The notes under the pieces: generated by a model
Told to the model about the DNA's origin: nothing
What the model saw: the letters and a program-made list of their open reading frames with translations, nothing else
Databases searched by the model: none
Translations under genes and position numbers: made by a program
Shown: positions 21,408 through 37,050 of the stretch, one piece after another
How positions within the stretch are numbered: position 1 is the first letter of the stretch
How the letters are laid out: each line of letters starts with the position of its first letter
Source of the DNA: Clostridiales bacterium
GTDB lineage: Bacteria; Bacillota; Clostridia; Peptostreptococcales; Acidaminobacteraceae
Assembly: GCA_021107455.1 (NCBI GenBank)
Contig: JAIOSU010000109.1
Coordinates: 1 to 37,050 of the forward strand
Direction of reading: 5' to 3'
DNA: 37,050 nucleotides

Positions 21408-21543
21408 TAAAGCTAAATTAACTATTCAAGCCTTACAAACATCCTCATAATTTTTAATCACTCTTTCAATGTTCTCTGTGAAAAGCTTCATATTTCGGGT
21501 ATGAAAAAAATAAGTGCACTTTTTACGGGTCACAGGAGGCATT

Positions 21544-22857
21544 ATGAATTTAATCAAATATTTGACAACAAAGGGTGTTAAAATCCCTGACCATAAAGAA
21601 ATGACTCGAGATTTGAATGTAGTAAATATCAAAACTCCAAAACACCTTTACTATTCAATGGACATGCATATCGGAAAGCCAGCCAAACCAGTTGTAGCTG
21701 TCGGTGATAGCGTGAAAATAGGATCGCTTCTGGGAAAAAATCAAGGCGGAATCTCTGCAAATATTCATTCTTCAGTATCAGGAAAAGTGATCTCTATTGA
21801 TGAAGATGGAGGATTTAGGGGAAAATGTGAATTGATCACCGTCGAAAATGATTATAAGGATGAGAAAGTAAAACTAAAAGATTTGGGCGACGATATCAGT
21901 ATAGAAGAGTTCACAAAAAGGCTTCAGGAAGCTGGAATAACTGGCAAGGGAGGTGCGGGATTTCCTACGCACATCAAATACGAAATGGAAAAACATGAAG
22001 CCGAGTATTTGCTGATCAACGGAGCAGAATGTGAACCCTATTCCACCTCAGATCATAGGTGTATGGTTGAATATGCAGATGAAATTGTTAAGATAACCAA
22101 TCTTATCATGAAAATATACCAAGTGGATGAAACCTATATCGCTGTAGAGAATCAAATGCCAGAGAGCAAGCGGGCTCTGAATCAAGCAATAAAGAAGAGT
22201 CACTCCAAAAGCATTAAAGTATATGAACTCCCCTCAATTTATCCTCAAGGTCATGCCGCACTTCAAATAGACAAGGTACTTGGGATTGAAACAAAAGAAA
22301 AACAACGTTCTGGAGATGTGGGAGTACTACAATCAAATGTGTCTACAATCAAGGCGATACACGATGCAGTTTTTAATAATGAAACTTTTTTTAGGAGAAT
22401 TATCACCGTAACTGGACCAATGATCAAAACTCCAAAAAATGTAATGGCAAGAATAGGGACTGAGGTAGCTCATTTAGTTGAGGAATGTGGTGGCTTTTAT
22501 GACGGGGAGAGAATCAATATAACCGGTGGACCTATGATGGGTAAATCCTTTGGCAATCTTAGCCTTTCAGTTGATAAAGATACTACAACTCTGCTTTTTT
22601 TGAAAAGGCATTCTAAAACTGAGGAAAAGGCATGTATCAGATGCGCTAGATGTATCGATCACTGCCCTGTCAGCCTACAACCGATTCTAATAAGTTCGGC
22701 CTATAGAACCAGAGAATATGATCTGGGAATTACCTTAAAATCTGAAAGTTGCATCAATTGTGGAATATGCTCATATATCTGTCCTTCCAAGATTAATCTG
22801 CTTGATGATATTCAAAATTTGAATAAAGAACTGGAGGGAAAAGATGATGATCAGTGA
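21544..22857 (+). CDS. RnfC-like electron transport complex subunit
   Basis: A 437-residue RnfC homologue. An N-terminal barrel-sandwich segment (KGVKIPDHKEMT to GKVISI) is followed by the NADH/FMN-binding domain with GITGKGGAGFPTHIKYEME and NGAECEPYSTSDHR, a SLBB-like section, and a C-terminal module with two 4Fe-4S motifs, CIRCARCIDHCP and CINCGICSYICP. RnfC is the NADH-oxidising, peripheral subunit of the ion-translocating ferredoxin:NAD oxidoreductase. The ATG is preceded by AGGAGG; a GTG ten codons upstream is less likely. It overlaps the RnfD-like gene by 14 bp. The usual partners RnfG, E, A and B do not follow, so this may be a specialised two-subunit unit. Confidence 0.88.
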   Translation: MNLIKYLTTKGVKIPDHKEMTRDLNVVNIKTPKHLYYSMDMHIGKPAKPVVAVGDSVKIGSLLGKNQGGISANIHSSVSGKVISIDEDGGFRGKCELITVENDYKDEKVKLKDLGDDISIEEFTKRLQEAGITGKGGAGFPTHIKYEMEKHEAEYLLINGAECEPYSTSDHRCMVEYADEIVKITNLIMKIYQVDETYIAVENQMPESKRALNQAIKKSHSKSIKVYELPSIYPQGHAALQIDKVLGIETKEKQRSGDVGVLQSNVSTIKAIHDAVFNNETFFRRIITVTGPMIKTPKNVMARIGTEVAHLVEECGGFYDGERINITGGPMMGKSFGNLSLSVDKDTTTLLFLKRHSKTEEKACIRCARCIDHCPVSLQPILISSAYRTREYDLGITLKSESCINCGICSYICPSKINLLDDIQNLNKELEGKDDDQ

Positions 22858-23827
22858 ACTGAAAGCACCTTTTATAAGATCAGAAGCTACAACTCATGGC
22901 ATTATGAGAGACGTGCTTATCGCTTTGATTCCAGTCTCTGCCATGGCAATAGTCTATTTTGGAATTCGCAGTTTACACATGATCATTCTTGGAATTGGAT
23001 CCGCTGTATTTTTTGAATACTTTTATCAAAAGGTCATGAAAAAAGAGAGCACTATAAAAGACTTATCCGCGGCTGTTACTGGTCTTCTGATCGCACTCAG
23101 CCTCCCACCTACCGCTCCACTTTGGATAGTGCTATTCGGAACAGCAGTAGCAATAATTTTTGTTAAACAACTTCCAGGAGGAATAGGAAAAAATACATTC
23201 AACCCAGCAGTTTTATCGAGGGTGCTTATTAAAATTCTTTTCACTCCACTGATCACCAACTGGGTACTCCCGGGACCCGATGCGGTCTCAGCAGCTACTC
23301 CACTCAGTCTCATTGGTTCAGACACCAGTGTTTCAGCCTTGATTTCCTTTAGTGAAGTACCTTCATTTTACGATGTATTCATGGGGAATATCGGTGGAAA
23401 CATTGGTGAAACTGTGAAATGGGCCATCCTTTTGGGATTTGCATATCTTGTAATCAGAAAAGTAATCAGCTTTTGGGTTCCTATATCCATGTTGGGCGGA
23501 CTTTTCCTGACCATACTTTTGTTTGGAAAATCAGATTTCAATATTGCACTTTATCATTTAACAATTGGAACAGCAATGTTTGCAGCCGTATTTATGGTTA
23601 CGGATTACACCTCCGGCCCTATGATTAAAAAAGCAAGAATCTATTATGTACTGCTAATAGGAATCATTACAGGCGTATTAAGAATACTGTTTTATTTACC
23701 GGGAGGCGTTGGCATAGCTATTCTGATCATGAACGTACTGGCTCCGGTCCTAGATGGTGTATGTACACCTAGAGTCTTCGGACACACAGGAAGAACCATA
23801 CCGGTTTCGTACGTGTTCAGAAAATAA
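22844..23827 (+). CDS. RnfD-like membrane flavoprotein subunit
   Basis: A 327-residue membrane protein with about nine or ten hydrophobic segments. It contains GLLIALSLPPTAP, NPAVLSRVL and DAVSAATPLSLIG; the Thr of SAATPL corresponds to the covalent FMN site of RnfD/NqrB. VMNVLAP-type hydrophobic ends are followed by GVCTPRVFGHTGR, close to the family terminus. GGAGGG precedes the first of two ATG codons by five bases. Translation is coupled to the RnfC gene by a 14-bp overlap. In complete complexes, RnfD carries electrons across the membrane arm, and here the electron acceptor is unknown because no RnfG, E, A or B gene is visible nearby. Confidence 0.87.
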   Translation: MMISELKAPFIRSEATTHGIMRDVLIALIPVSAMAIVYFGIRSLHMIILGIGSAVFFEYFYQKVMKKESTIKDLSAAVTGLLIALSLPPTAPLWIVLFGTAVAIIFVKQLPGGIGKNTFNPAVLSRVLIKILFTPLITNWVLPGPDAVSAATPLSLIGSDTSVSALISFSEVPSFYDVFMGNIGGNIGETVKWAILLGFAYLVIRKVISFWVPISMLGGLFLTILLFGKSDFNIALYHLTIGTAMFAAVFMVTDYTSGPMIKKARIYYVLLIGIITGVLRILFYLPGGVGIAILIMNVLAPVLDGVCTPRVFGHTGRTIPVSYVFRK

Positions 23828-24686: not shown

Positions 24687-26069
24687 TCAAATATCAAACA
24701 AATTATTTAATGCTTCTGATAAACTTGGATGTGTAAAAATTCCATCTCTTAATTGCTCATATTTCATACCTGCCATCATTGCGATCTGAACCATCGCCAA
24801 AATTTCTCCACCTTGATATCCAAGTATGGCTACACCTAGAATCTCATGATTCTCTTTATTGATCACTGCCTTCATAAAACCTTTAGTAACTCCCTCTTCA
24901 ATAGCTCTCCCTAAGTGCTTCATCTCCAGTTTTCCGATTTCAATATCAAACCCATTTTCTTTTGCTTGTGCTTCTGTTAATCCTACTCTTCCAAGTTGTG
25001 GCTCTATGAAAAGTGTATAAGGAATCATTCTGTCATTTATATTTCGTTCTCCTTTTCCAAATAAATCATCTATAACAATTCTATAATCATCATAAGCTAT
25101 GTGAGTAAATTGTGGTCCACCTTTGACATCACCGAGCGCATAGATATGATTTACATTAGTCTTTAATTTCTCATCTACTTGAATATCCCCGTGATCATCT
25201 ATTTTTACATCTGTATTTTCTAGATTCAACTCTTTGGTAACAGGAACCCTGCCAGTAGCAAGCATAAAGTGGGTACAATCTATTTTACTTTTCATGTTGT
25301 CTTTTTCATAATGCAGAACGACCTTACGATCACTACTTTTAACTTCGGTCGTTTCTGTATTCAACAAGAATTCAATTCCATCTTCCTCAAGTATTTTTTG
25401 AACTCTATTGGAAATATCCTGGTCCTCATGTTTAATAATTTTATCGCCGCTACCAATCAATGTAACTTTACTTCCAAATCTTCTAAACATTTGCCCAAAC
25501 TCCAGTGCAATATATCCAGTCCCCAATATTATCAGATGTTCTGGAAGTTCATCCAGTTCCATAATAGATGTTGAATCATAATAGGGCACAGTTTCTAGGC
25601 CTTTTAATGGAAGTATGTTCGGTTTTGATCCCGAATTTATAAAAATCTTCTCTGCTTTTATGCGTTGCTCTCGGCCATCATTTAACTCAATCAAAATCGT
25701 GTGATTATCTAAAAAACTTGCTTTTCCTTTATACAAATCGATATTCTCATTCCGCTCAATAGACTTTTCTATCGAGGATCGAAAAGCCTTGACGATATCA
25801 TTTTTTCTTTGCATTACCTTTTTAAAATCCAGCTCCACATTTTTTGCGAAAACACCTAGTTTTTCACTGTTTTGAACTCTATGATGTAAATTTGAGCTTG
25901 CAATAAGTGTTTTTGTCGGAGTACACCCAAAATTAATGCATGAACCACCAAGTTCATTCATTTCTATCATTGCTACAGTCTGTCCTCTTCCTGACAAATC
26001 TGTCATTAGTGGATTGCCCGCTTGTCCGCTTCCAATTATTATTGCCTCATATTTTTTTATTTCTGTCAT
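24687..26069 (-). CDS. FAD-dependent pyridine nucleotide-disulfide oxidoreductase (class I)
   Basis: A 460-residue flavoprotein of the dihydrolipoamide dehydrogenase/mercuric reductase group. It has an FAD-binding motif (IIIGSGQAGNP), the redox disulfide in GGSCINFGC (Cys44, Cys49), a second NAD(P)H-binding Rossmann motif (IILGTGYIALEFG), the FAD motif HIYALGDV, and the C-terminal dimer/base segment THPSLSEAL. AAGGAGG lies before the ATG. No lipoamide-enzyme genes surround it, so a housekeeping LPD is unlikely. It may be a RclA/YkgC-like reductase or a thiol/metal reductase. It appears to be a single-gene unit; a pair of TATCCT-containing inverted repeats lies upstream (26124-26186). Confidence 0.9.
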   Translation of the reverse strand: MTEIKKYEAIIIGSGQAGNPLMTDLSGRGQTVAMIEMNELGGSCINFGCTPTKTLIASSNLHHRVQNSEKLGVFAKNVELDFKKVMQRKNDIVKAFRSSIEKSIERNENIDLYKGKASFLDNHTILIELNDGREQRIKAEKIFINSGSKPNILPLKGLETVPYYDSTSIMELDELPEHLIILGTGYIALEFGQMFRRFGSKVTLIGSGDKIIKHEDQDISNRVQKILEEDGIEFLLNTETTEVKSSDRKVVLHYEKDNMKSKIDCTHFMLATGRVPVTKELNLENTDVKIDDHGDIQVDEKLKTNVNHIYALGDVKGGPQFTHIAYDDYRIVIDDLFGKGERNINDRMIPYTLFIEPQLGRVGLTEAQAKENGFDIEIGKLEMKHLGRAIEEGVTKGFMKAVINKENHEILGVAILGYQGGEILAMVQIAMMAGMKYEQLRDGIFTHPSLSEALNNLFDI

Positions 26070-26123
26070 CTTGATCCTCCTTCATTCCAAACAACACAAA
26101 ATACTTGTCAATTCAGTCTATTT

Positions 26124-26142
26124 TTATCCTAACCTCGGATAA
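26124..26142. promoter_or_regulatory. Candidate operator upstream of the disulfide oxidoreductase
   Basis: TTATCC-N7-GGATAA forms a 19-bp inverted repeat 55 bp upstream of the oxidoreductase ATG. A degenerate relative, TATCCTGAGATAAGGA, lies at 26171-26186. TTGACA on the minus strand (26106-26111) has no good -10 box at 16-18 bp. The whole gene-poor stretch 26070-26554 holds only this, the microgene at 26214-26364 and the rsgA terminator. Confidence 0.3.
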
Positions 26143-26213
26143 CTTAGCAGCTTCGATAAATGCATCATTCTATCCTGAGATAAGGAAATAAGTAGCACTT
26201 ATCGGCTAAAAAA

Positions 26214-26330
26214 TCAAACTGGAAACAGGTTCGTCTCTGGCACTAGAAACAGGCCAACATTTCCATCTGCAATAGGAGTGAAATCTGAGCAACAATTATT
26301 CAGAAAATATAAACCACTTTTCTTCTTCAT
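26214..26330 (-). CDS. Possible second half of a frameshifted small gene
   Basis: A 38-codon reading frame begins with ATG and encodes a basic start (MKKKSGLYFL) followed by NNCCSDFTPIADGN and a hydrophobic end (NVGLFLVPETNLFPV). Its own ribosome binding site is poor. It overlaps, in another frame, the microgene starting at 26364. The two would join into one 49-residue protein if the TTTT run at about 26303-26306 lost one base. I do not recognise the protein. It may be a pseudogene, a frameshift, or noise. Confidence 0.25.
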   Translation of the reverse strand: MKKKSGLYFLNNCCSDFTPIADGNVGLFLVPETNLFPV

Positions 26331-26554: not shown

Positions 26555-27634
26555 CTATTTATAATGCTTTATTTTATTATACTTTGAGATGTTTTTGAAC
26601 TTCTCATTTTTCTTTTTGAGATAGTCATCTCGATTTTCTGAATAATCATCTTCAGCTTTCAGTTTCAAGTAAGACTGCCAACGTTTTTCGGACAGCTCAC
26701 CATCCCGAATTGCATCATAAACGGCACATCCAGGTTCACTCGTATGTGTACAATCACGAAAGCGACATTTGTCAAAGTAGACTTCAACATCTTGAAAAGC
26801 CATGTCCAGTCCCTCATCCGCATCCCACATGCCAAGTTCTCGCATACCCGGTGTATCAACAAGCATACCACCAGCAGGCAGTAAAATCAGTTCTCTTCGA
26901 GTTGTCGTATGCCTGCCGCGATCATCATTCCTAAGTTCCTGGGTTTCAATTGTTTCCCTACCCGTCAACCAATTGATCAGCGTAGATTTTCCAACACCTG
27001 ATGACCCTAAAAGAGCAACTGTTTTGCCCGGTGTTATGTAAGACATCACATCATCAAAGCCTTCGTTCGTTACCGCTGAAATACCCAAGAGATCTACACC
27101 ATTTCCGACAGAATCAGCTGCCCTGAACTTGCTGTAAATATCATCGCACAAATCCACCTTTGTTAGAACCACTACAGGTGTTGAACCGCTTTCCCATACA
27201 AGCACTAAGTAGCGTTCCAATCTTCGAAGATTAAAATCACTATTGACCGACATGCATATGAAAGTTGTATCAATATTTGTTGCGACCAACTGCTCTTCAT
27301 TTGACTTTCCAGCTGCCTTACGAATGAAAGCACTTTTCCTTGAAAGCACTTGATGAATGATTCCGTTCCCATTTTTACCATTATCGCGATCTAGCATAAC
27401 AAAATCGCCTACAGCAGGAAAATCACTAAGATTCCTGGTCTGATGCCTATATTTACCTGATACTACAGCAAAAAAATCATCATTCTCTGTTACAACACGA
27501 TAGATATCCTTTGACTGCGAGAGCACCCTTCCCAAAAATAAATCTTTAAACTCTGAGGCTTCTTTTGCCAATGCATCACTTAGTCCATAATTTTTCAATT
27601 TGTCATAGCGCATGCACAGCACATCCGATTTCAT
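26555..27634 (-). CDS. rsgA: Ribosome small subunit-dependent GTPase RsgA, copy 1
   Basis: A 359-residue circularly permuted GTPase that assists late 30S assembly. An OB-fold (about residues 30-110) is followed by G4 (LTKVD, 158-161), G1 (LGSSGVGKST, about 209-218), G2 threonines (RGRHTTTRRE), G3 (VDTPGM, 259-264) and a zinc site Cys290, Cys295, His297, Cys303. Neither possible ATG (codon 1 or codon 8) has a good ribosome binding site, so the start is uncertain. It lies 42 bp after the response-regulator gene and may be read from that operon. Its 3' part is nearly identical to a second rsgA at the right edge of the window. Confidence 0.93.
   Translation of the reverse strand: MKSDVLCMRYDKLKNYGLSDALAKEASEFKDLFLGRVLSQSKDIYRVVTENDDFFAVVSGKYRHQTRNLSDFPAVGDFVMLDRDNGKNGNGIIHQVLSRKSAFIRKAAGKSNEEQLVATNIDTTFICMSVNSDFNLRRLERYLVLVWESGSTPVVVLTKVDLCDDIYSKFRAADSVGNGVDLLGISAVTNEGFDDVMSYITPGKTVALLGSSGVGKSTLINWLTGRETIETQELRNDDRGRHTTTRRELILLPAGGMLVDTPGMRELGMWDADEGLDMAFQDVEVYFDKCRFRDCTHTSEPGCAVYDAIRDGELSEKRWQSYLKLKAEDDYSENRDDYLKKKNEKFKNISKYNKIKHYK
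26632..26824 (-). repeat. 193-bp direct repeat inside rsgA, copy A
   Basis: This stretch matches 36858-37050 with two differences by hand comparison (fixed offset of 10226). It ends abruptly on the left, inside the rsgA coding region, where the two genes differ at 28 of the last 77 aligned positions. The right limit of the repeat is unknown because the window ends. Confidence 0.95.
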
Positions 27635-27676
27635 GAAGCGGTACCGGGAGCTTTCCCGGTTACGTCTAAATTAAAA

Positions 27677-28309
27677 TTAGAACCATGCACTATTTTTATC
27701 CTTTAAAATCTCGATGACTTGTTTGCGGTCATTGCCACCAAGTTTTTTGTAAATATCACTAATATAATTTCTGACTGTTCCGTGACTGATATTTAACCGG
27801 CTTGCAATTTCTTTATTTGTAAGTTCTAGTATGAGCAAATCAATAATCTCCTGTTCGGTTTTGTTGAAGGAAGAGTTATTAAAAGTAGATATGGACTTTG
27901 CCAATTTTTGTGCAATATCATTCGGAATGATTATTTCATCTTTAATACAGGCTTTAATATTTTCAATGAGTTTAGTTGCTTTAATATCTTTCAGAATATA
28001 ACCATCCACTTTAGCGCTAAAAGCATCAAAAATAAGCTTTTCGTTTGAAAAAGTGGTCAGCATAAGCACTTTAATCTTATCATTGTAGTCTTTAATCATT
28101 TTAGTGCTCTCTATACCACTTAAAACAGGCATTATGGCATCCATAAGCACTATATCAATAGGGGCATCTGAACTTTTAATATAATCAAATGCCATTTGTC
28201 CGTTTTCACAAGTTAAAACAACTTCAAAATCATCTTCAAGATCTAACATCCTCTTAAGACTATTTCTAATGATCTCATGATCATCGACAATTATTATTTG
28301 CTTGCTCAT
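27677..28309 (-). CDS. NarL/LuxR-family response regulator
   Basis: A 210-residue two-domain regulator. The receiver domain has acidic Asp9/Asp10, phospho-acceptor Asp57 (VLMDAIMP), the switch Thr (LMLTTF) and Lys107 (YILKD). The C-terminal LuxR-type helix-turn-helix contains LTNKEIASRLNISHGTVRNY at about residues 163-182. GGAGG lies four bases before the ATG. It follows the histidine kinase gene by 34 bp, so the two form a cognate pair. The target is probably its own operon, which includes the large membrane-anchored protein upstream; this is inferred from gene order only. Confidence 0.93.
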   Translation of the reverse strand: MSKQIIIVDDHEIIRNSLKRMLDLEDDFEVVLTCENGQMAFDYIKSSDAPIDIVLMDAIMPVLSGIESTKMIKDYNDKIKVLMLTTFSNEKLIFDAFSAKVDGYILKDIKATKLIENIKACIKDEIIIPNDIAQKLAKSISTFNNSSFNKTEQEIIDLLILELTNKEIASRLNISHGTVRNYISDIYKKLGGNDRKQVIEILKDKNSAWF

Positions 28310-28343
28310 AGTTCCTCCTGTCTGAAATGGAATAGGTCGTTAT

Positions 28344-29495
28344 TCAAGGTATGGGAAAGGGCAATACAATCCTAACCTCACAGTTGTTATGAGCTGTAAT
28401 ACTATACTCACCGCCATAGCTCTTTAGTTTTTCTTTAATTTGTGTAATTCCAAAACCATAGACAATCGTGTCAAAACCTTCTCCATCATCTTCGATGCTG
28501 ATTAAAATATTACTATCAGCTTCAATCCTTATCATAATATTTTTACAGTGGGCATGTTTTAATGAATTGGTAACGCTCTCGAGGATAACATTGTAAATAA
28601 TAGTATTGAGTTTTCTGGGGATTTGATTACTAATACTCAATGCATACTGAATGGATATAGATGTATTGTTTTTGATGTTGGAAACAAACATTTCTAGGAG
28701 TTCCTCAAGTTCAAGAGTCGTCATAAAATCATCAGAATTCTCGATTGTTTTTCTTAAAAGGGCCATTGTGGTACTGATTTGATCTTCGACATTGGAAAAA
28801 TGGTCATCGGTTAATACATTAGACTTTATGAGTTCCATTTTCTCGGCCTGTAAGGATAGATTTATAGAAACGAGCATATGTCCAATGGAGTTATGCAGCA
28901 TATAGGCTATTCTGGATCGTTCTTCATGGATTGCTAGTTCTTTTATTTTTATTGCGTAAGTGCCTAGTTCTGCAAATGCTATATTTCTCTCTGTAAGGAC
29001 TTTGTTGTATTTTACTCTTTCTATGATTTGCATCTTCGATATATACAAGGTAGTGAGGACAAATATGAGAACAACAATATCCCGAGTCATATCATAGGAA
29101 TATCCCATTGTGCCTTTGTAGATGTAAATCATAAAAGGAAAATATACCATAAAAGTAATGGACGTGAAAGCCATGCTGTATTTATAAGAGAATGCAAATA
29201 TGCAGTCTCCAATAATAAGAAGAACAAACAATAATTCAAAAGTGGATCGATCGAAATAAGTGAGGCAGAAAACAACAATCATTTGAATGATTAAAACAAT
29301 TTTAGCTTTTGCATTTACCCCTTCGCTTTTGTAATACTTATAATGGCTGACACTTGAAATAATCAAATTAACGGTTAAAAATAAACAGGGCAAAACGGGA
29401 TTATCATTGAACATGAAAACCACTACGTATGAACAAACATAATTTATATACATGATCAGCGTTAAAAACTTGTGCGTTTTAATGTCTATATTCAT
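28344..29495 (-). CDS. Sensor histidine kinase, HisKA_3 (NarL-partner) type
   Basis: A 383-residue kinase with about five or six membrane helices in residues 8-165 and almost no extracellular domain, so it probably senses the membrane or a membrane partner. A short coiled linker leads to the dimerisation/phospho-acceptor helix EERSRIAYMLHNSIGHML; the His is followed by Asn rather than the Asp usual in this family. The ATPase domain has N-box ESVTNSLKHAHCKN and G-box motifs IEDDGEGF and GFGITQIKEKL. It is cotranscribed with the response regulator and lies 35 bp after the large exported protein gene, whose product may be its ligand or target. Confidence 0.92.
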   Translation of the reverse strand: MNIDIKTHKFLTLIMYINYVCSYVVVFMFNDNPVLPCLFLTVNLIISSVSHYKYYKSEGVNAKAKIVLIIQMIVVFCLTYFDRSTFELLFVLLIIGDCIFAFSYKYSMAFTSITFMVYFPFMIYIYKGTMGYSYDMTRDIVVLIFVLTTLYISKMQIIERVKYNKVLTERNIAFAELGTYAIKIKELAIHEERSRIAYMLHNSIGHMLVSINLSLQAEKMELIKSNVLTDDHFSNVEDQISTTMALLRKTIENSDDFMTTLELEELLEMFVSNIKNNTSISIQYALSISNQIPRKLNTIIYNVILESVTNSLKHAHCKNIMIRIEADSNILISIEDDGEGFDTIVYGFGITQIKEKLKSYGGEYSITAHNNCEVRIVLPFPIP

Positions 29496-29530
29496 ACAAT
29501 CACCCTATTTAATCATATCATAAATGACTA

Positions 29531-31537
29531 CTACTTTTTAAAATCAAAAATACTTTCTAATCCTAGAGAAGCTTTTTCACCATTTGGACCCGACATTTCA
29601 AAATCATAAATACCTGTCAGACTAATATAATTTTTCTCATCATTAAAATAGCCCTGAATTGTGAAATCTACAGCTATGCTACCATCCGAGTCGCTGTAGT
29701 TTATATAATCTGATAATACAATATTGTTTCCATCGATTCTCATAACATAAGGGTCGGGATTGTTACCAAATAGAGCAACAACATTTCCATCTAATTCCTT
29801 AATCTTAAGAGAGTTATCAAAAACTTTATTCATTAATGAACTGAAAATAATCTGCTTTTCGTCTTCTGTAAGATCTCCACTTATAAGAGTAACATCAGTA
29901 ACAGTTTGGGTACCGTTCCAGTCACCTATCATACTATATTCAACAGTTTCCTCTATAGGGATTTCTTCATTATTATCCCATTCGATTGTGAAATTCTCTA
30001 AATGCTCGTCAGAGGTTAACTCATCTAAAACATCTGAAAAATCAGCATCTAATAATCCTATACTGTCTTGATCTTCTACAACAACATATTCTTCTGTAGA
30101 GTTTTGGTGACTTAGTAAGTAATGGACTCTACTTTTTTCCTCAGCTAAAAATTTTTCCATTAAGGAGATTTCATTGATGAGTTTATTATTCAAATCATCA
30201 ATTTTTTTGATAAACTCAAGATCTTTATTCCTGTTTTTTAGGATTGAACTATCGAGTGTTCTATTTAATTCATAATGGCTTTTTAGAATATTAAAATCCT
30301 CATCAGATAGTTTTAGATCGTCGACAGTATAATAGAGCTCGGAATCATCTAATGTATCCGTAATTTTATCCGTTATGGTACTCTTAACATCATCTTTTAT
30401 AGTTTTTAGAATATTATCTGAAGTTGCAAAGTTAAAGACTTTTTGAGTGCTTGAATAACCGTCTTCATATTCATCAGTCACATAATTTGAAGTTGCTTCT
30501 ATAATTGCACCGACTTGGGTCACCGAATTGGCGCCCTCTTTTAATATGTCATCTGCAAAAGAGGTTCCAGTGCCATATGCCTCTTTGATCTGTATGGCTG
30601 TAAAAGCAGACAGTCTTACAAAACTCTTTATAAGATTACTTTTATGTGTTTTTACTATGATTTCTTTTGTCTTAACGAGTTCTAGGTACTCAAGTCTGTT
30701 AATCTCTTTAGCGTTAACAAGGGTATAGAGTTGATTATAATAATTGTTTGTATTTGTTTTTGCGTTTTCATATTGCTGAGCTTCATAACTTCTACTTTCA
30801 AAAGGGATTCTATCGTCAATGTCAGAGTATTTTTCCCAGTCCTTTTCAAAGATTTCCTCAACAATTGACCCCTCAGCATCATATAAATTGTCAGCATACA
30901 CATTGGGCAAATTAGTATTAATGATTATTAAACAACACATAAGTGTAGAAAGCATTTTAGGCATCTTCTTCTTAGATAGAGCCCTGATGATTATAAGTAT
31001 TATAAAAACAATAAGCCCAACTATACACATCAGTGTGGCAGCTTTCAGTCCTTGATTGACTGAGATGTTATTATCTATAAAAAGTGCCAGACCACTTGTA
31101 TCAAACAAGTATTCTGTATCAAAAGCGCCATCGTAATCAACGTCTTGGTAAACAGAATCAATGTTCAGACCGTTTTTTACATTCATATAAACATCAAAAT
31201 CACCATCTTTGTTTTTATCCCAGGAAGCTGATACTAAAATTCCATTGTTGTAGTAACTGCGTCTTTCGTAATAACTATCATTATTGTCATCATCATCAAA
31301 AATAGTATCATAGCTTGAATTCATGTTAAGAATACTAATGGTCCCTATGCTGTCCATGCCATACTGATCTGTTTGTTGACCGCATGACTTATCAGACACG
31401 TAAGCACCTTCATTGAAAATCATCGATTCTTGAGGATTGGAGGTATAATCTTCATAAACAAGATATCCATTAACAGCAAAAAAACCAAAACTGATAAAAA
31501 GCAAAACAAGTAAAAATAAATCAACTATTTTTTTCAT
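29531..31537 (-). CDS. Large membrane-anchored protein with calcium-loop motifs, unknown function
   Basis: A 668-residue protein that I do not recognise as a family. A membrane helix (about residues 5-25) leads to an outer domain with two DxDxDG-type calcium loops, DKNKDGDFD (107-115) and DVDYDGAFD (132-140). A second helix (about 165-185), a short basic cytoplasmic loop (RALSKKKMPK), and a third signal-peptide-like helix ending NLPNVYAD (about 195-216) follow. The remaining 450 residues are mostly helical and acidic, ending in a beta-rich domain starting SMIGDWNGTQTV. The layout looks like two exported proteins fused. The start ATG has AGGAGG seven bases upstream. It is the first gene of the operon with the histidine kinase and regulator. 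Confidence 0.8.
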   Translation of the reverse strand: MKKIVDLFLLVLLFISFGFFAVNGYLVYEDYTSNPQESMIFNEGAYVSDKSCGQQTDQYGMDSIGTISILNMNSSYDTIFDDDDNNDSYYERRSYYNNGILVSASWDKNKDGDFDVYMNVKNGLNIDSVYQDVDYDGAFDTEYLFDTSGLALFIDNNISVNQGLKAATLMCIVGLIVFIILIIIRALSKKKMPKMLSTLMCCLIIINTNLPNVYADNLYDAEGSIVEEIFEKDWEKYSDIDDRIPFESRSYEAQQYENAKTNTNNYYNQLYTLVNAKEINRLEYLELVKTKEIIVKTHKSNLIKSFVRLSAFTAIQIKEAYGTGTSFADDILKEGANSVTQVGAIIEATSNYVTDEYEDGYSSTQKVFNFATSDNILKTIKDDVKSTITDKITDTLDDSELYYTVDDLKLSDEDFNILKSHYELNRTLDSSILKNRNKDLEFIKKIDDLNNKLINEISLMEKFLAEEKSRVHYLLSHQNSTEEYVVVEDQDSIGLLDADFSDVLDELTSDEHLENFTIEWDNNEEIPIEETVEYSMIGDWNGTQTVTDVTLISGDLTEDEKQIIFSSLMNKVFDNSLKIKELDGNVVALFGNNPDPYVMRIDGNNIVLSDYINYSDSDGSIAVDFTIQGYFNDEKNYISLTGIYDFEMSGPNGEKASLGLESIFDFKK

Positions 31538-31634
31538 AGTATTGCCTCCTTTTACTCTATTATAAATGTGAACCAATGGTATTTCAGTCATAAGAGTGTC
31601 ATATGACACCTTTCAGAATCCTGGGAGCACATAA

Positions 31635-31669
31635 AAAATCGCCCGAGACAATGCGACTGAGGCGATTTT
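31635..31669 (-). terminator. Terminator after the beta-propeller-like lipoprotein gene
   Basis: AAAATCGCC and GGCGATTTT form a 9-bp stem around a 17-nt loop, 22 bp past the stop of the gene at 31692. On the minus strand the stem runs into ATTTTTTATG. Confidence 0.75.
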
Positions 31670-31691
31670 AATAGAAATTACTTATGCTTAA

Positions 31692-32711
31692 TCAGTCCGG
31701 AATTTTTGCATAGCGCATATTACCATCTTCACCGTACACGAATAAATGTCCATTGAATTCTACTGCACAGTATGCACTAAATGAAACGTCATCTTCTGTA
31801 AAGAGCTGCTCCCAAGTGATTGCATCGGTGGAGACTGTGGCGTTGCCTGTGCCATGAAGTGCGATAAAGCGAGATTTGCTATCCACTAGGAATACGGATC
31901 CACCTGGCTTCACAGATGTAATTTTCGAACCATCAAAAGCGAAATTATCGTAATCTGCTGGTAAAAAGAACATTGAACCATTATAAAGTATATCTGTTGC
32001 ACCATATACCATCTCTTCAATGGTGACCATCTGTGTCCATGTGGCAAGGTCACCGCTACTCCAGATGCCATCGCCCACAGCATAATAGGTACCGTTATAT
32101 TGTGCGAGTTTATAAATTGAAGCTGCGTAACCTGACGCAGTTTGAAAATAGACCTCTGATAGCGGGTTGCCAACTTCAGCCTGATACCTGATGTATTTGA
32201 GCCCATCCGATGAGGTGCATAAATAGCCTGTGTCCACGTCGATAAAGCGGCTACCATCATACATTGCAGTGTTAAAGAGATGATAGTCCTGTCGTGGGGC
32301 ACTGGTCCAACTTTTACCATCTGAAGTAAAATGCGAATTGTTGGTATCATATACAGCAAACTGCCCGCCAGCCAAAAAGGCATCATAGAAAGGATACGGA
32401 GCAAGATCTAGAGTCAAATCCCAATTGATCCCGTCAGAAGAGAAATAAATAGACATACTATCTGTTCCGATTAATCCACCCGCAAAAGGATGCACTTCAT
32501 TTAGTTCAATACCCCCTGTGATGATGTCTGTTGTCCATGTAGAATCTGGTGCTGAAATAGTGATTTCTGCACTGCCAGATGATGGATCCACTGGCTCGGC
32601 ACTGTTCTCCACGGTTACTGCTGTTTCGTCTCCACCTGAGCTACAAGCTGTGAGCGAAAATAAAAGCATAATGCCTAATATAATGATAATGTACTTCTCT
32701 GATAATCTCAT
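31692..32711 (-). CDS. Lipoprotein with sialidase/BNR-like repeats
   Basis: A 339-residue secreted lipoprotein. A basic and hydrophobic signal is followed by the lipobox LTACSS (lipidated Cys at about residue 23) and a Ser/Pro/acid-rich linker. The rest contains at least four repeats of the type SSDGINWD, TSDGKSWT, SSGDLATWT and STDAITWEQ, resembling Asp-box/BNR blades of a beta-propeller. No catalytic residues are evident, so a binding or structural role is more likely than an enzyme. The gene appears more GC-rich than its surroundings (31 G/C in 32041-32100), suggesting separate acquisition. It is divergent from the cysteine-peptidase-like lipoprotein gene. Confidence 0.82.
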   Translation of the reverse strand: MRLSEKYIIIILGIMLLFSLTACSSGGDETAVTVENSAEPVDPSSGSAEITISAPDSTWTTDIITGGIELNEVHPFAGGLIGTDSMSIYFSSDGINWDLTLDLAPYPFYDAFLAGGQFAVYDTNNSHFTSDGKSWTSAPRQDYHLFNTAMYDGSRFIDVDTGYLCTSSDGLKYIRYQAEVGNPLSEVYFQTASGYAASIYKLAQYNGTYYAVGDGIWSSGDLATWTQMVTIEEMVYGATDILYNGSMFFLPADYDNFAFDGSKITSVKPGGSVFLVDSKSRFIALHGTGNATVSTDAITWEQLFTEDDVSFSAYCAVEFNGHLFVYGEDGNMRYAKIPD

Positions 32712-32750
32712 AATACTCCCCCTCTTGTTTATCAGAATCTTGCATATTCA

Positions 32751-32778
32751 TTGTATCACAGAACTGTGTAAATAAAAT
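32751..32778 (+). promoter_or_regulatory. Candidate promoter of the 801-residue lipoprotein gene
   Basis: TTGTAT (32751-32756) and TAAAAT (32773-32778) are 16 bp apart, 58 bp before the ATG. The spacer holds the inverted repeat CACAG-AA-CTGTG (32757-32768), a possible operator shared by the divergent lipoprotein genes. Confidence 0.35.
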
Positions 32779-32835
32779 CCCTCCTGGGTATATGACTAAT
32801 GTATGTACTTAAATGCGTTATAAAGGAGGCAAAAC

Positions 32836-35241
32836 ATGACTAAGAAATTTTGTTCAATTGCTTTCTGCTTCTTATTGTTAACAAGTTGTCAATCAAACAA
32901 CTCACCCGATGTTTCAACCAAGGACGTTTCAACCATTGATACTCCTGTTGAAATATCTGAGACAGAAACCATTACTGAAAATGATCCAATTGAGACAGAA
33001 ACAAAACAAACTGAAGTTTTAACAGAATTACCCACAGAGCCGGTGATCAAGAAAAACGTTGAAACCAATGAAAAACACACACTGATTTATAGTGCGATGA
33101 CAAATCCCGAAAAGAATCAAATTATGCTTGAATCAGTGACCATAGACATTAATGCTCCCGAATCCATTCAACTTGAAATTCACTCAATCGAAATAGAGCA
33201 AATGGGTTATGACTTTATTGTACCGGTAACACCTATATTCGAGATCGATGCAGGGGGCTCTTTTTTCGATGAACCCGTTATACTATCCTACCCACATGAT
33301 GAAGATGATTATTCAAATTATTATGGTTTTTTTTATGATTCGGAAAATGACACCATTGAAATGCTCCCCTTTATCAGAAAAGCCACTCAAACTCAATTCT
33401 ACACTAACCATTTCAGCAATATTTTCATCGCCCAAATGACACCTGAAATGAGTCAACATTTTCAGGAACGAAAAGATGTAGTTACACCATTTCAAGTGGG
33501 ATCAGATGACTTCAGATTCGTCAACAATGGCTCTTATGCTGCTCCGAACGGTCATTGTGATGGGCAAAGTCAAGCAGCCATGTGGTATTTTAAGAACATC
33601 CGTCTCAAAAACATGGATGATCCTAGCACCGCACTTCATCAATTGTATGACAATAATCTCAATGATTTCAGGACACCGAATTTTTGGTACGACGATAGTT
33701 GGCTGTATCGATTTGCTAGTAGCGTTCAAAAGGATGAGCGTTCAGGATACATATTCGGACTATTGCATTTGGATACAGACATATATACAGAAGATGTAGA
33801 CCAGAATGATCAATATGTGTTCGACGCATTTTATCTCAGTATGCTTCTTGCCAATAGACCACAACTTATCTGGATATGGAACAGTGACGCCAGTACTGGT
33901 CACGCTCTCATAGCCTACGCGATCAAAGGCAATCGCCTTTATGTTGCTGATCCAAATTATCCTGGTGCAGAACGCTATATCGAGTTTGTAGATGGTGCAT
34001 TCAAGCCTTATGGATCAGGTGCGAATTTCAAGGAAATTGAAGCCAGAGGTGAGACCACTTACACAGAATTTCAATTTTTGGGAGAATTTGCGACAATTGA
34101 TGAACACCAAATTGAAACCAGATGGAGAGAAGTGACCTCCGGACAGCTGTCTAATGAATACTTCCCATATTTTGCTGTCATTTCCGAAACAGGAAATGTA
34201 TGTATCCAAAAGTACAAGTTTAAAATTGAACCCATTGACAATACACCCGATGAATTTCAGTTTACATTATTCAGCCCGTCAATGGAAAAATATAACTTAA
34301 CTGATGCAACTGGAACAGAAGTTTTATCGCCACCATTTGAAATGATAAATCTGGAACCATTCACATATGTACTTGAAGAAATCAATGAAGGTGATAATAC
34401 CATTGGTGTGTTGATCGAAGGTAAAAAAGGACTCGGTTCAACTTATGATTGGGCTGGATTTCAGTGGCTGCAGATATATAATGATACGGACTTGCTGCTT
34501 CAAGCTGATAAAACATCTGTAAAACCTGGTGATACAGTTACTTTAACAGCAAAAATGGATAGTGGCATTGATATCTCAAATCAACTTGAATGGGTTGTTG
34601 AAGGTGAAGTCAAATCAATCCAAACGACGGAATATGAGTTTTCCTCAAGTGAAATAGGTACTTTTGCCATAGAAGCTGTATTATTCGAATCAAATCTTCG
34701 AAAACAAATACTCATCGAAGTGACTGAAGATCCCATAGAGCCCGTACAGGAAATTCAAGAATCTGAATCTACTAAAGTTTCAGGGACTTATTCCTGCACA
34801 TTCTTACTATCCAGTTATCTAACTGAGCCAGATACAAATTTCCAAGATGATCCTTGGTACACTGCCGAACAAAAAGTGCAAATGGCAAAAGAAAGCGCTG
34901 CAAGTCTACAAGAAGCTTTTTCAGAAAGAGTTGGAATCCAGAATGTTGATCGTAACAACTTCCGGGTTACCGTACACGATGATGGCACCTGCTCCATTGG
35001 ATTTAGTGATTTTCTTGGCTTTAACATGGCTTTTTATTCTGTAGGTCCCGTACCTTTCAACGGTGGCAATGTGACTTTCGACATTACGCATAATGGCAAC
35101 CAATTCTCTGGAATTGTCCAGTTTGAGCTGGCTGATGATGGCGTCGAGATGTGGGGTAGAGTAAGAAAATCATCTAGAGACAACCAATACAATTGCTATA
35201 TAACTGCAACGTACGAATTTGAAGGTTATAAAGGGGAATAA
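32836..35241 (+). CDS. Lipoprotein with papain/C39-like cysteine peptidase domain
   Basis: An 801-residue exported lipoprotein (lipobox LLTSC, Cys18) with a long Thr/Glu-rich linker to about residue 75. A beta domain (about 80-205) is followed by a cysteine-peptidase-like domain: NGHCDGQSQAAMW with Cys241, TGHALIAYAI with His356 and VADPNYPG with Asp372, in the order Cys-His-Asp of papain-like enzymes. An Ig-like segment (LLQADKTSVKPGDTVTLTA, about 555-635) and a C-terminal beta-rich domain (SGTYSCTFLL onward) follow. The catalytic residues are present, but peptidase activity is inferred; a transglutaminase-like or bacteriocin-processing-like role is also possible. AGGAGG precedes the ATG. 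It is a single-gene unit with its own terminator. Confidence 0.83.
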   Translation: MTKKFCSIAFCFLLLTSCQSNNSPDVSTKDVSTIDTPVEISETETITENDPIETETKQTEVLTELPTEPVIKKNVETNEKHTLIYSAMTNPEKNQIMLESVTIDINAPESIQLEIHSIEIEQMGYDFIVPVTPIFEIDAGGSFFDEPVILSYPHDEDDYSNYYGFFYDSENDTIEMLPFIRKATQTQFYTNHFSNIFIAQMTPEMSQHFQERKDVVTPFQVGSDDFRFVNNGSYAAPNGHCDGQSQAAMWYFKNIRLKNMDDPSTALHQLYDNNLNDFRTPNFWYDDSWLYRFASSVQKDERSGYIFGLLHLDTDIYTEDVDQNDQYVFDAFYLSMLLANRPQLIWIWNSDASTGHALIAYAIKGNRLYVADPNYPGAERYIEFVDGAFKPYGSGANFKEIEARGETTYTEFQFLGEFATIDEHQIETRWREVTSGQLSNEYFPYFAVISETGNVCIQKYKFKIEPIDNTPDEFQFTLFSPSMEKYNLTDATGTEVLSPPFEMINLEPFTYVLEEINEGDNTIGVLIEGKKGLGSTYDWAGFQWLQIYNDTDLLLQADKTSVKPGDTVTLTAKMDSGIDISNQLEWVVEGEVKSIQTTEYEFSSSEIGTFAIEAVLFESNLRKQILIEVTEDPIEPVQEIQESESTKVSGTYSCTFLLSSYLTEPDTNFQDDPWYTAEQKVQMAKESAASLQEAFSERVGIQNVDRNNFRVTVHDDGTCSIGFSDFLGFNMAFYSVGPVPFNGGNVTFDITHNGNQFSGIVQFELADDGVEMWGRVRKSSRDNQYNCYITATYEFEGYKGE

Positions 35242-35250
35242 CACAAACGA

Positions 35251-35284
35251 AAAAATCCCGTTGAATTGAATCAGCGGGATTTTT
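35251..35284 (+). terminator. Bidirectional rho-independent terminator
   Basis: AAAAATCCCG and CGGGATTTTT are perfect 10-nt arms around a 14-nt loop, so both strands end in a T run. It serves the lipoprotein gene on the plus strand and could also stop the minus-strand CheX-like gene. Confidence 0.9.
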
Positions 35285-35338
35285 CATTAGAAGATTAATC
35301 CGAATTATTGTGTACAAGTACAGAGATAGCCCTTTATA

Positions 35339-36205
35339 TCACATGCTGAGAATCAAACAAATGTCCCCAAGATCAGTATGGAATGGAATTTTGTACAAAT
35401 TATCTCCCACTGGAGCAAAGTTTTCTTTATGGCTCTGAATTTCCAAGTCAAACTTCAAATCCTTGTCCGACATATTCACTGCAAATAGACCATTGTGAAG
35501 GTTTAGGAATTCTTTGCAAACATCAATTGTGAACTCATTAATAACTTCTAAAGTCTCACCGGCATACTTTGAAGAAAATAAAACTAAAACCTTCTCGTTT
35601 GCAGTATATGCAGTATAAATTTCTTGATTGCCTTTTATTTTTTGTTCAAACAAATAATTGTAATGCTCATCACCACTCAATTTTTCGGGTTCAGAAATAT
35701 AAACGTCATTTGTTATGAATCGAATGATATTTTTGTAAAATAGTGTTACATACTCTTTTATGACATGATCCTCTGTCCTTATTATGTTATAGATCACTTC
35801 ATCAACTTTGCCATTTTTAAGTTCATCAAACGATTCGTCTGAGAGCCCATGTTGTTTTTTGTAAGTGTTCATTGCTTCAGCAAATTCTTCAAGAGTCATA
35901 TATCCAAGATCCACTATTGTTTGAGCCATTTTCAGATGCTCAGATTGTTGCATATTTAAGATAATTTCAAGATTTTCTTCCGTCAAATAACCGAATTCTA
36001 CAGCAATCTCACCAAATCTTTTATCATGCTTCTTTTGTAGACCATTAATAACCACAACTTGGCTTGGAGTTAAGAATCCTTTATCGATTGCAATCATACC
36101 TAGTCTTAATCTAGTGCTTTTGATGCTTTGAAAAACTATATTGAGCTCCCCAGCAGAAATGAGATCATTGTTGAGTAAAAACTGGCCGAAAAATTGGGTA
36201 AACAT
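35339..36205 (-). CDS. MshEN-like repeats fused to a CheX/CheC-type phosphatase domain
   Basis: A 288-residue protein. The first 115 residues hold three repeats of a pattern seen in MshEN/GspE-N domains: FGQFLLNNDLIS, RLGMIAIDKGFLT and RFGEIAVEFGYLT, each followed by an amphipathic helix; such domains can bind c-di-GMP. The C-terminal part (about 125-288) resembles CheX-type CheY-phosphate phosphatases, with the E-x-x-N signature in CKEFLNLHNG (Glu232, Asn235). The ATG has AGGAGG upstream and lies one base after the stop of the CheY-like gene, so the two products surely act together. No other chemotaxis gene is in view. The repeat assignment is by pattern only. Confidence 0.75.
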   Translation of the reverse strand: MFTQFFGQFLLNNDLISAGELNIVFQSIKSTRLRLGMIAIDKGFLTPSQVVVINGLQKKHDKRFGEIAVEFGYLTEENLEIILNMQQSEHLKMAQTIVDLGYMTLEEFAEAMNTYKKQHGLSDESFDELKNGKVDEVIYNIIRTEDHVIKEYVTLFYKNIIRFITNDVYISEPEKLSGDEHYNYLFEQKIKGNQEIYTAYTANEKVLVLFSSKYAGETLEVINEFTIDVCKEFLNLHNGLFAVNMSDKDLKFDLEIQSHKENFAPVGDNLYKIPFHTDLGDICLILSM

Positions 36206-36206
36206 T

Positions 36207-36569
36207 TTATACCTCCTTGCAATACTTGCCGATTGTTCTCTCAAGTATATCTGCCTCAACTGGCTTTTGAATGAAATCAACTGCACCAGCCTTAAGTGCC
36301 TTACTTAAATTGTCTTTAGTGCCCACAGATGAAAGCATAACCACTTTTGCCATCTTGTCAAAAGCAATGATTCCATTTACTGCGCCAATACCATCTAGTT
36401 CTGGCATGATAATATCCATAAATACCAAGCTGGGCTTATTCTCTTTGTAAATATCTATAGCAGAACTGCCATTGGATGCTTCTAAAATCTCAAAATCTCC
36501 TAGTTCAAAAATCATATTCGTTAATTGTCGCCTGATCATTGTAGAATCGTCACAGATCAATATCTTCAT
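36207..36569 (-). CDS. CheY-like single-domain response regulator
   Basis: A 120-residue receiver domain without an output domain. Asp7/Asp8 (ILICDDST), phospho-acceptor Asp52 (VFMDIIMPELDG), switch Ser (VVMLSSVG) and Lys in FIQKP are all present. GGGGG lies six bases before the ATG. It pairs with the CheX-like phosphatase gene that starts one base after its stop. There is no kinase nearby, so phosphate must come from a kinase encoded elsewhere. It may signal to the flagellar motor or to another partner. Confidence 0.93.
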   Translation of the reverse strand: MKILICDDSTMIRRQLTNMIFELGDFEILEASNGSSAIDIYKENKPSLVFMDIIMPELDGIGAVNGIIAFDKMAKVVMLSSVGTKDNLSKALKAGAVDFIQKPVEADILERTIGKYCKEV

Positions 36570-36698
36570 TGTATCCCCCTTATGTATATTTGTTAATAAA
36601 TTTTAACATTTATTCCAGCTCTAATCAATTTCTTTTAGTAATCATCATCATTATTCAATAGACTCCTCAATTGGTTGGAACCTTTGTCGATAGTGCAC

Positions 36699-36751
36699 AA
36701 ATAAAAAAACTTCCAACTTACAAACCTATATCTAGGTCCGAAGTGGAAGTT
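36699..36751 (-). terminator. Terminator of rsgA copy 2
   Basis: TGGAAGTT/AACTTCCA arms (36744-36751 and 36708-36715), with an inner ACCT/AGGT pairing, are followed on the minus strand by TTTTTTTAT. It lies 30 bp past the rsgA copy 2 stop. The sequence is unrelated to the terminator of copy 1. Confidence 0.75.
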
Positions 36752-36780
36752 CTTTCATATGGAATCTCACATCCCAAATT

Positions 36781-37050
36781 TCATTTATAACTTTTAGTCT
36801 TGTTCATTTTAGAAATGTTTTTAAATTTTTCGTTTTTTCTCTTAATATAATCCGCTTGATTTTCTGAATAATCATCTTCAGCTTTCAGTTTCAAGTAAGA
36901 CTGCCAACGTTTTTCGGACAGCTCACCATCCCGTATTGCATCATAAACGGCACATCCAGGTTCACTCGTATGCGTACAATCACGAAAGCGACATTTGTCA
37001 AAGTAGACTTCAACATCTTGAAAAGCCATGTCCAGTCCCTCATCCGCATC
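36781..37050 (-). CDS. rsgA: RsgA copy 2, 3' portion only (gene runs off the right edge)
   Basis: The last 89 codons of a second rsgA. It includes the zinc-site motif CRFRDCTHTSEPGC and the C-terminal helices. Up to about 25 codons before the end it is identical in protein to copy 1 at 26555-27634, then it differs (QADYIKRKNEKFKN against RDDYLKKKNEKFKN, and a different final segment). The rest of the gene lies outside the window, so integrity and start cannot be judged. Having two rsgA genes about 10 kb apart is unusual, although divergent RsgA paralogues do occur in Bacillota. Confidence 0.9.
   Translation of the reverse strand, partial: DADEGLDMAFQDVEVYFDKCRFRDCTHTSEPGCAVYDAIRDGELSEKRWQSYLKLKAEDDYSENQADYIKRKNEKFKNISKMNKTKSYK
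36858..37050 (-). repeat. 193-bp direct repeat inside rsgA, copy B (truncated by window end)
   Basis: Partner of 26632-26824, in the same orientation and at an offset of 10226 bp. Two substitutions were seen, one in CCGTATTGC and one in TATGCGTAC, against CCGAATTGC and TATGTGTAC in copy A. Confidence 0.95.

Follow-up and report, generated by a model that had tools for sequence, protein, structure and literature searches.

Crossed flanks around a near-identical tract in two rsgA genes of a Fusibacter-like bacterium: a possible crossover with gene conversion

Interlocus gene conversion between bacterial paralogues leaves a near-identical tract with sharp edges inside diverged copies, and the affinities of the tract are unlike those of its flanks, as is also seen at the locus described here. 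In Campbell-type insertion by homologous recombination, or ends-in insertion with gap repair, the segment comes to lie between two direct hybrid copies of the target gene, both carrying a tract from the target, and a relative shows the empty site. The term 'ends-in' insertion is used in the meaning given in a study on human cells (PMC3974634). SpyCI is reported to be an integrative element inserting into a host gene, mutL (PMC4129442). In this work, two copies of rsgA (copies A and B) were analyzed in a 37,050-nucleotide stretch of DNA (the window), which is the whole contig C163 (JAIOSU010000109.1) of a Clostridiales assembly. We hypothesize, with a probability of roughly 0.55, that the two genes are reciprocal hybrids which arose by crossover and conversion when a resident rsgA recombined with a second, diverged copy, around a segment of about 9.8 kb. 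The case is one of ordinary homologous recombination, for which known mechanisms suffice and no new system is needed. Nothing on this rsgA gene pair was found among the titles and abstracts listed in literature searches.

The assembly (G000) consists of 333 contigs with 3.5 Mb, is 96.4% complete with 4.8% contamination, and belongs to a Fusibacter-like bacterium. Twelve loci with relatives of this rsgA were obtained by a scan of genome contigs, and eight genomes were then searched whole. The closest relatives of this rsgA type are in the metagenome-assembled genome (MAG) LH_M70 (locus L040; G002 and G041 are taken as this one genome), which is of the same genus and 77% complete, and in Fusibacter bizertensis WBS (locus L041).

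Copy A is a complete open reading frame (ORF) of 359 amino acids on the minus strand (26555-27634). It is above the cut-off for PF03193 (E 2.5e-50, residues 96-270) and TIGR00157 (162 bits against a cut-off of 100), which places it in the RsgA (YjeQ) GTPase family; the GTPase role of this longer type is predicted. Unlike the two copies, a further RsgA relative in the genome has about 300 amino acids (C130:12233-13048, 30% identity), which is probably the canonical RsgA. Three more RsgA relatives counted in the same genome (30-44% identity) are not part of this recombination case. Copy B, also on the minus strand, starts at its 3' end with position 36781 and is cut by the contig end at 37050. 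The start of contig C199 encodes, in a fitting orientation, residues 1-223 of another rsgA, so that copy B apparently continues, after a gap of 139 bp, in C199 bases 1-668. From this fit and from the gene order of the relatives we infer that the end of C163 and the start of C199 are one gene; joined with 139 N, it is one open frame of 358 residues including the unknown ones. The copy pair, with a period of 10,226 bp, is the sole direct repeat of at least 40 bp that a repeat search with seed 15 reported in the window.

An ungapped comparison of copy A with positions 36781-37050 (offset 10226) gave 28 differences in 26555-26631 and two, at 26708 and 26747, in 26632-26824. This reproduces exactly the counts of a sequence-only reading of this DNA, which had reported 2 differences in 193 bp and 28 in the last 77 bp. 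The sharp boundary of that reading lies between 26631 and 26632 and was borne out, and a second edge was found beyond its view, between 27064 and 27065. The first 101 bases of C199 match window 26964-27064 without a difference, and identity then falls abruptly to 72%, with 408 of 567 aligned head sites agreeing between the copies. Divergence over the rest of the second gene, which had been named as counting against conversion if uniform, is thus not uniform. The tract between both edges (26632-27064 in copy A, 36858-37050 and C199 1-101 in copy B) is about 433 bp long, of which 294 bp are seen in both copies and 139 bp (26825-26963) are unseen in copy B. Two of the 294 sites differ between the copies, both at third codon positions, compared with 159 of 567 in the head (108 at third positions) and 28 of 77 in the tail. 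A near-identical stretch set between diverged sequence on either side is the mark of a gene conversion tract, here with 139 bp of copy B unseen. The tract was not found a third time in the assembly. Homogenization of the tract between the copies looks recent, because it differs at 2 of 294 sites between them but by about 7% from LH_M70. A simple recent duplication is excluded, as had been argued earlier, since the heads and tails are far too diverged; the sequences downstream of the two stop codons differ as well, as that reading had stated of the terminators. Strong conservation of the middle was also considered and rejected as unlikely: tract and head have diverged to a similar extent between species (copy A against locus L042 agrees at 317 of 433 tract and 410 of 570 head sites), and the third codon positions of both tract differences are a further point against it.

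The parentage of the parts was read from comparison with the relatives. The head of copy B (Y2, on C199) is 90.7% identical to LH_M70 and that of copy A (Y1, 27065-27634) 71.4%, whereas the tail of copy A (X1, 26555-26631) is 92.2% identical (71 of 77) and that of copy B (X2, 36781-36857) 67.5% (52 of 77), with 49 of 77 sites shared between the two tails. The tract is 93.1% identical to LH_M70 on the N side, 90.6% in the part of copy A that matches the gap, and 93.3% on the C side; both copies are of the resident type there (94/101 and 180/193), and the tract stays close to LH_M70 throughout (0.87-0.98 in 60-bp windows inside the tract). At head sites where the copies differ, LH_M70 agrees with A, B, or neither at 17, 125, and 17 sites, respectively, and F. 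bizertensis at 28, 103, and 28; at tail sites, the counts are 23, 4, and 1 for LH_M70 and 21, 5, and 2 for F. bizertensis. Fisher's test on these counts gave p values of 7e-14 and 1e-8 for sites that are linked and not independent. The head tree unites copy B with LH_M70 and F. bizertensis at 100/100, with copy A outside in an unsure place (with locus L046 at 78/85), and a head clade of copy A with both relatives but without copy B was rejected by the approximately unbiased (AU) test (p-AU 0.0002). In the tract tree, copies A and B are paired at 70/70 near LH_M70 and F. bizertensis (66/81), with weak support. As assembled, copy A therefore combines a tail of resident type with a foreign head, and copy B has the opposite combination. 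The tract donor would be the resident type, and the tract of one copy appears to have been replaced by that of the other; the outer flanks of each copy, which a non-reciprocal transfer keeps parental, are crossed. Since plain conversion should leave each gene's parental flanks on both sides, a crossover, or else a phase swap in the assembly, has to be added, and in this the locus differs from interlocus gene conversion. Of the earlier proposal of recent gene conversion, the homogenized middle of two old diverged copies holds, and conversion alone does not. Inversion between inverted copies would be rejected on geometry, because the segment is bounded by the head of A and the tail of B. No donor lineage is indicated for the copy A head, because its best protein matches in 393 genomes of the order are the own C199 (80%), LH_M70 (79%), and F. 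bizertensis (79%).

The gene order of the relatives was compared as well. On C199, an RNHCP gene precedes and overlaps rsgA; it is whole before copy B, while only its end is present before copy A, as a stretch matching the RNHCP 3' end (27619-27641, minus strand), with homology to relatives ending at 27641. A hairpin with a 7-bp stem and a 4-base loop was seen by eye at 27643-27660, one base upstream of that end. In LH_M70, RNHCP (PF12647) lies on the 5' side of rsgA and is the homologue of C199 646-1041 (92%). The two genes are also neighbours in L041, L042, L043, and L046 by protein match and in L045 by a DNA match spanning both. On its 3' side, rsgA of LH_M70 carries sequence of the C163 left flank: L078 5685-5781 corresponds to window 26129-26225 (82% over 97 bp), and L078 1-211 to window 25918-26128 (87% over 211 bp). 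Thus, contig C21 of LH_M70 represents an empty site, in which one rsgA links the left flank of C163 to the first gene of C199, its left side resting on 97 + 211 bp. Among the six genomes searched for the left flank, it was found in earnest only in LH_M70 and not in the other five. Of three other genomes of the genus that were searched, only LH_M70 has this rsgA type, and G001 and G003 have none; G001 was rejected as a second empty site, being without this rsgA type and without the left flank. Most simply, the ancestral resident gene would consist of the tail of A, the tract, and the head of B, and the DNA between the copies would be extra at this site, because in LH_M70 RNHCP lies upstream and the left flank downstream of the single gene.

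Single genes of this composition in LH_M70 and F. bizertensis could also have arisen by deletion between the members of an ancestral direct-repeat pair, whose tract was recently converted in G000 without crossover. Although no insertion into G000 would then be needed, seven of the eight genomes have exactly one match of at least 72% identity (the best match of the eighth is 51%), so losses elsewhere would be required. Moreover, the tract is near LH_M70 along its full length, so that the deletion point would have to coincide with the conversion edges, or conversion would have to be repeated, and RNHCP is cut off before copy A and whole before copy B. We therefore regard an ancestral pair as doubtful.

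In the proposed crossover, the parents would be a resident rsgA (type c), linked to RNHCP, and a diverged copy (type e) that arrived as part of a larger stretch, with about 9.8 kb besides. In e, c sequence would have taken the place of the middle 433 bp, and the exchange would leave the e segment inserted in the order left flank, X1-tract-Y1, segment, X2-tract-Y2, C199. A Campbell-type insertion in which a gap or break in e is repaired from the c template, i.e. an 'ends-in' insertion, would leave such a product, presumably via a circular or tandem intermediate; conversion may have preceded or followed the supposed crossover. The locus agrees with this mechanism in that direct copies of the target bound the segment (the right one over two contigs), the outer flanks are of target and the inner flanks of donor type (with a weak tail test, p-AU 0.046), the tract in both copies comes from the target, and a relative has the empty site.

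Several observations weigh against a hybrid origin by insertion. The 77-bp tail tree has no well-supported branch, and a tail clade of copy B with both relatives but without copy A was barely rejected at the p-AU just given. The tract differences name no donor, as LH_M70 has the base of B at 26708 and that of A at 26747. A second copy could have been missed in LH_M70 at its 77% completeness. No circular donor was seen. Two genes inside the segment, for a CheY-like receiver and a 315-amino-acid protein, are native to the genus and lie elsewhere in the LH_M70 genome (window 35850-36635 is 88% identical to its contig C128), so the segment does not seem to be simply a foreign element. No integrase, transposase, other recombinase, or replication gene was recognised in the seven of nine ORFs of at least 100 amino acids between the copies that were scanned, two nested ones being omitted. 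Finally, copy B is split over two contigs, and the pairing of heads with tails spans 317 bp (26748-27064), of which 139 bp are unseen in copy B, in an assembly that seems to mix strain variants, because the ends of C10 (12555-12904, L131) and C163 (1-349) overlap by about 349 bp with five differences. The end of C267 likewise overlaps the start of C10, at 87% over 462 alignment columns.

An assembly cause for the flank phase is thus possible and is the main rival, although we consider it unlikely. The real genes would be X1-tract-Y2 (resident) and X2-tract-Y1, e having received the 433-bp tract by plain conversion, and the assembler would have crossed over inside the tract. The swapped pairing is exactly the gene of the relatives and, in LH_M70, has their neighbourhood; furthermore, contigs break within the tract and strain variation is present. 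However, this pairing requires either a circular segment or a second false join of C163 inside the segment, despite the native chromosomal genes there. The assembly graph looks like one with k near 77: at the start of C163 there are 76 identical bases before the first difference, and at its right end 77 after the last difference between A and B, while the start of C199 (101 identical bases) and the end of C10 (about 107) do not show this figure. Counted from the tail edge, identical runs between the copies measure 76, 38, and 77 bases. If k is near 77, the own bases of copy B at 26708 and 26747 would make its tail-to-tract join a separate path, which is silent on which head follows.

A pure assembly chimera, in which the middle of e was itself diverged and was exchanged for that of c during assembly at two short conserved stretches, is very improbable. 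The strain mixture and a 20-bp run common to L042 near the head edge (27039-27058) would allow for it, but two independent false joins are needed, the tract of copy B is not a plain copy of that of A, and no separate diverged middle was found on a contig of the assembly (a contig below the length cut-off could be missing).

The segment between the tracts (27065-36857), absent at this place in LH_M70, carries on the minus strand a LuxR-type response regulator (27677-28309) and a histidine kinase (28344-29495), with a related pair on contig C32 of G003. Proteins of 692 (minus strand), 339 (minus), and 801 (plus) amino acids at 29531-35241 have no Pfam, PHROGs, or NCBIfam match. They are followed on the minus strand by the 315-amino-acid protein with a c-di-GMP-binding MshE-related domain (35339-36286) and the CheY-like receiver (36207-36569). 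These two ORFs (35339-36569) overlap as called; they are side by side also in G009 and G063, and in G016 a DNA match spans both. With the segment DNA as query, any match was obtained in 8 of 13 genomes including G000, and besides G000 it was substantial only in LH_M70, G016, and G003. Among 393 genomes of the order, 2 have the 801-amino-acid protein and 16 the 315-amino-acid protein (E 1e-10); the 692-amino-acid protein was found in 3 of 41 genomes of the family (E 0.001), G000 counted each time. No donor locus carrying the segment genes was found by protein search of genomes of the order and family.

A portion of this DNA was probably relocated within the genome, because the CheY and 315-amino-acid genes are native to the genus and located elsewhere in LH_M70. 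There the pair stands beside a DUF5698 gene, followed further on by a transport-like block and homologues of the first 7 kb of C163. In G000, the transport-like block is on C10, the contig overlapping the start of C163, and the DUF5698 gene is on C267, with a gene that its translation suggests to be phosphatase-like in the position of CheY in LH_M70. The slot upstream of the DUF5698 gene differs between genomes (L118 14225-14842, L127, and L164 compared): it holds the CheY pair in LH_M70, the phosphatase-like gene and about 4.1 kb of other genes in G001, and the phosphatase-like gene directly in G000. A wholly foreign insert was accordingly rejected in part, given the 88% identity of this pair. 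A phage or plasmid element was rejected as well: no relative of this rsgA occurs in 27 candidate stretches of viral contigs, the RsgA relatives in plasmids (184 records) all stay below 60% identity, and the 692-amino-acid protein, the only segment protein searched there, has no match in plasmid and phage collections.

In lying within a gene, the segment resembles integrative elements such as SpyCI. It differs in that no integrase was recognised here, in that the shared stretch measures hundreds of bp, lies within the gene, and is flanked on each side by homologous but diverged sequence, and in that copy A has a full-length ORF, as is also predicted for copy B. One might imagine an integrase-less unit of about 10 kb that moves by homologous recombination with its own rsgA as attachment gene, each insertion leaving two full-length hybrid rsgA genes so that the host keeps the function, but we give this idea very little credence.

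The locus is of interest as a clean natural example of recombination between copies whose heads are only about 72% identical: both tract edges can be placed to the base, and relatives reveal where each of the four flanks came from. Should long reads confirm the joins, conversion and crossover would together have created two chimaeric GTPases and relocated several kb. The case also cautions against calling conversion from a near-identical repeat that reaches a contig end without consulting the adjoining contig.

Some observations concern the left side of the window. The two left-flank pieces are separated by 5.5 kb more in LH_M70 than in the window, where this DNA is missing between 26128 and 26129; it comprises transaldolase-, phosphoketolase-, TetR-, and glycosyltransferase-like ORFs of L078, named from their translations only. 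Positions 26129-26225 are a leftover piece of the 3' end of the glycosyltransferase-like ORF. Further to the left (21514-23827), RnfC- and RnfD-type genes adjoin (TIGR01945 and TIGR01946 above cut-off), and what comes next is not another Rnf subunit but an ORF that resembles a short-chain dehydrogenase in its translation.

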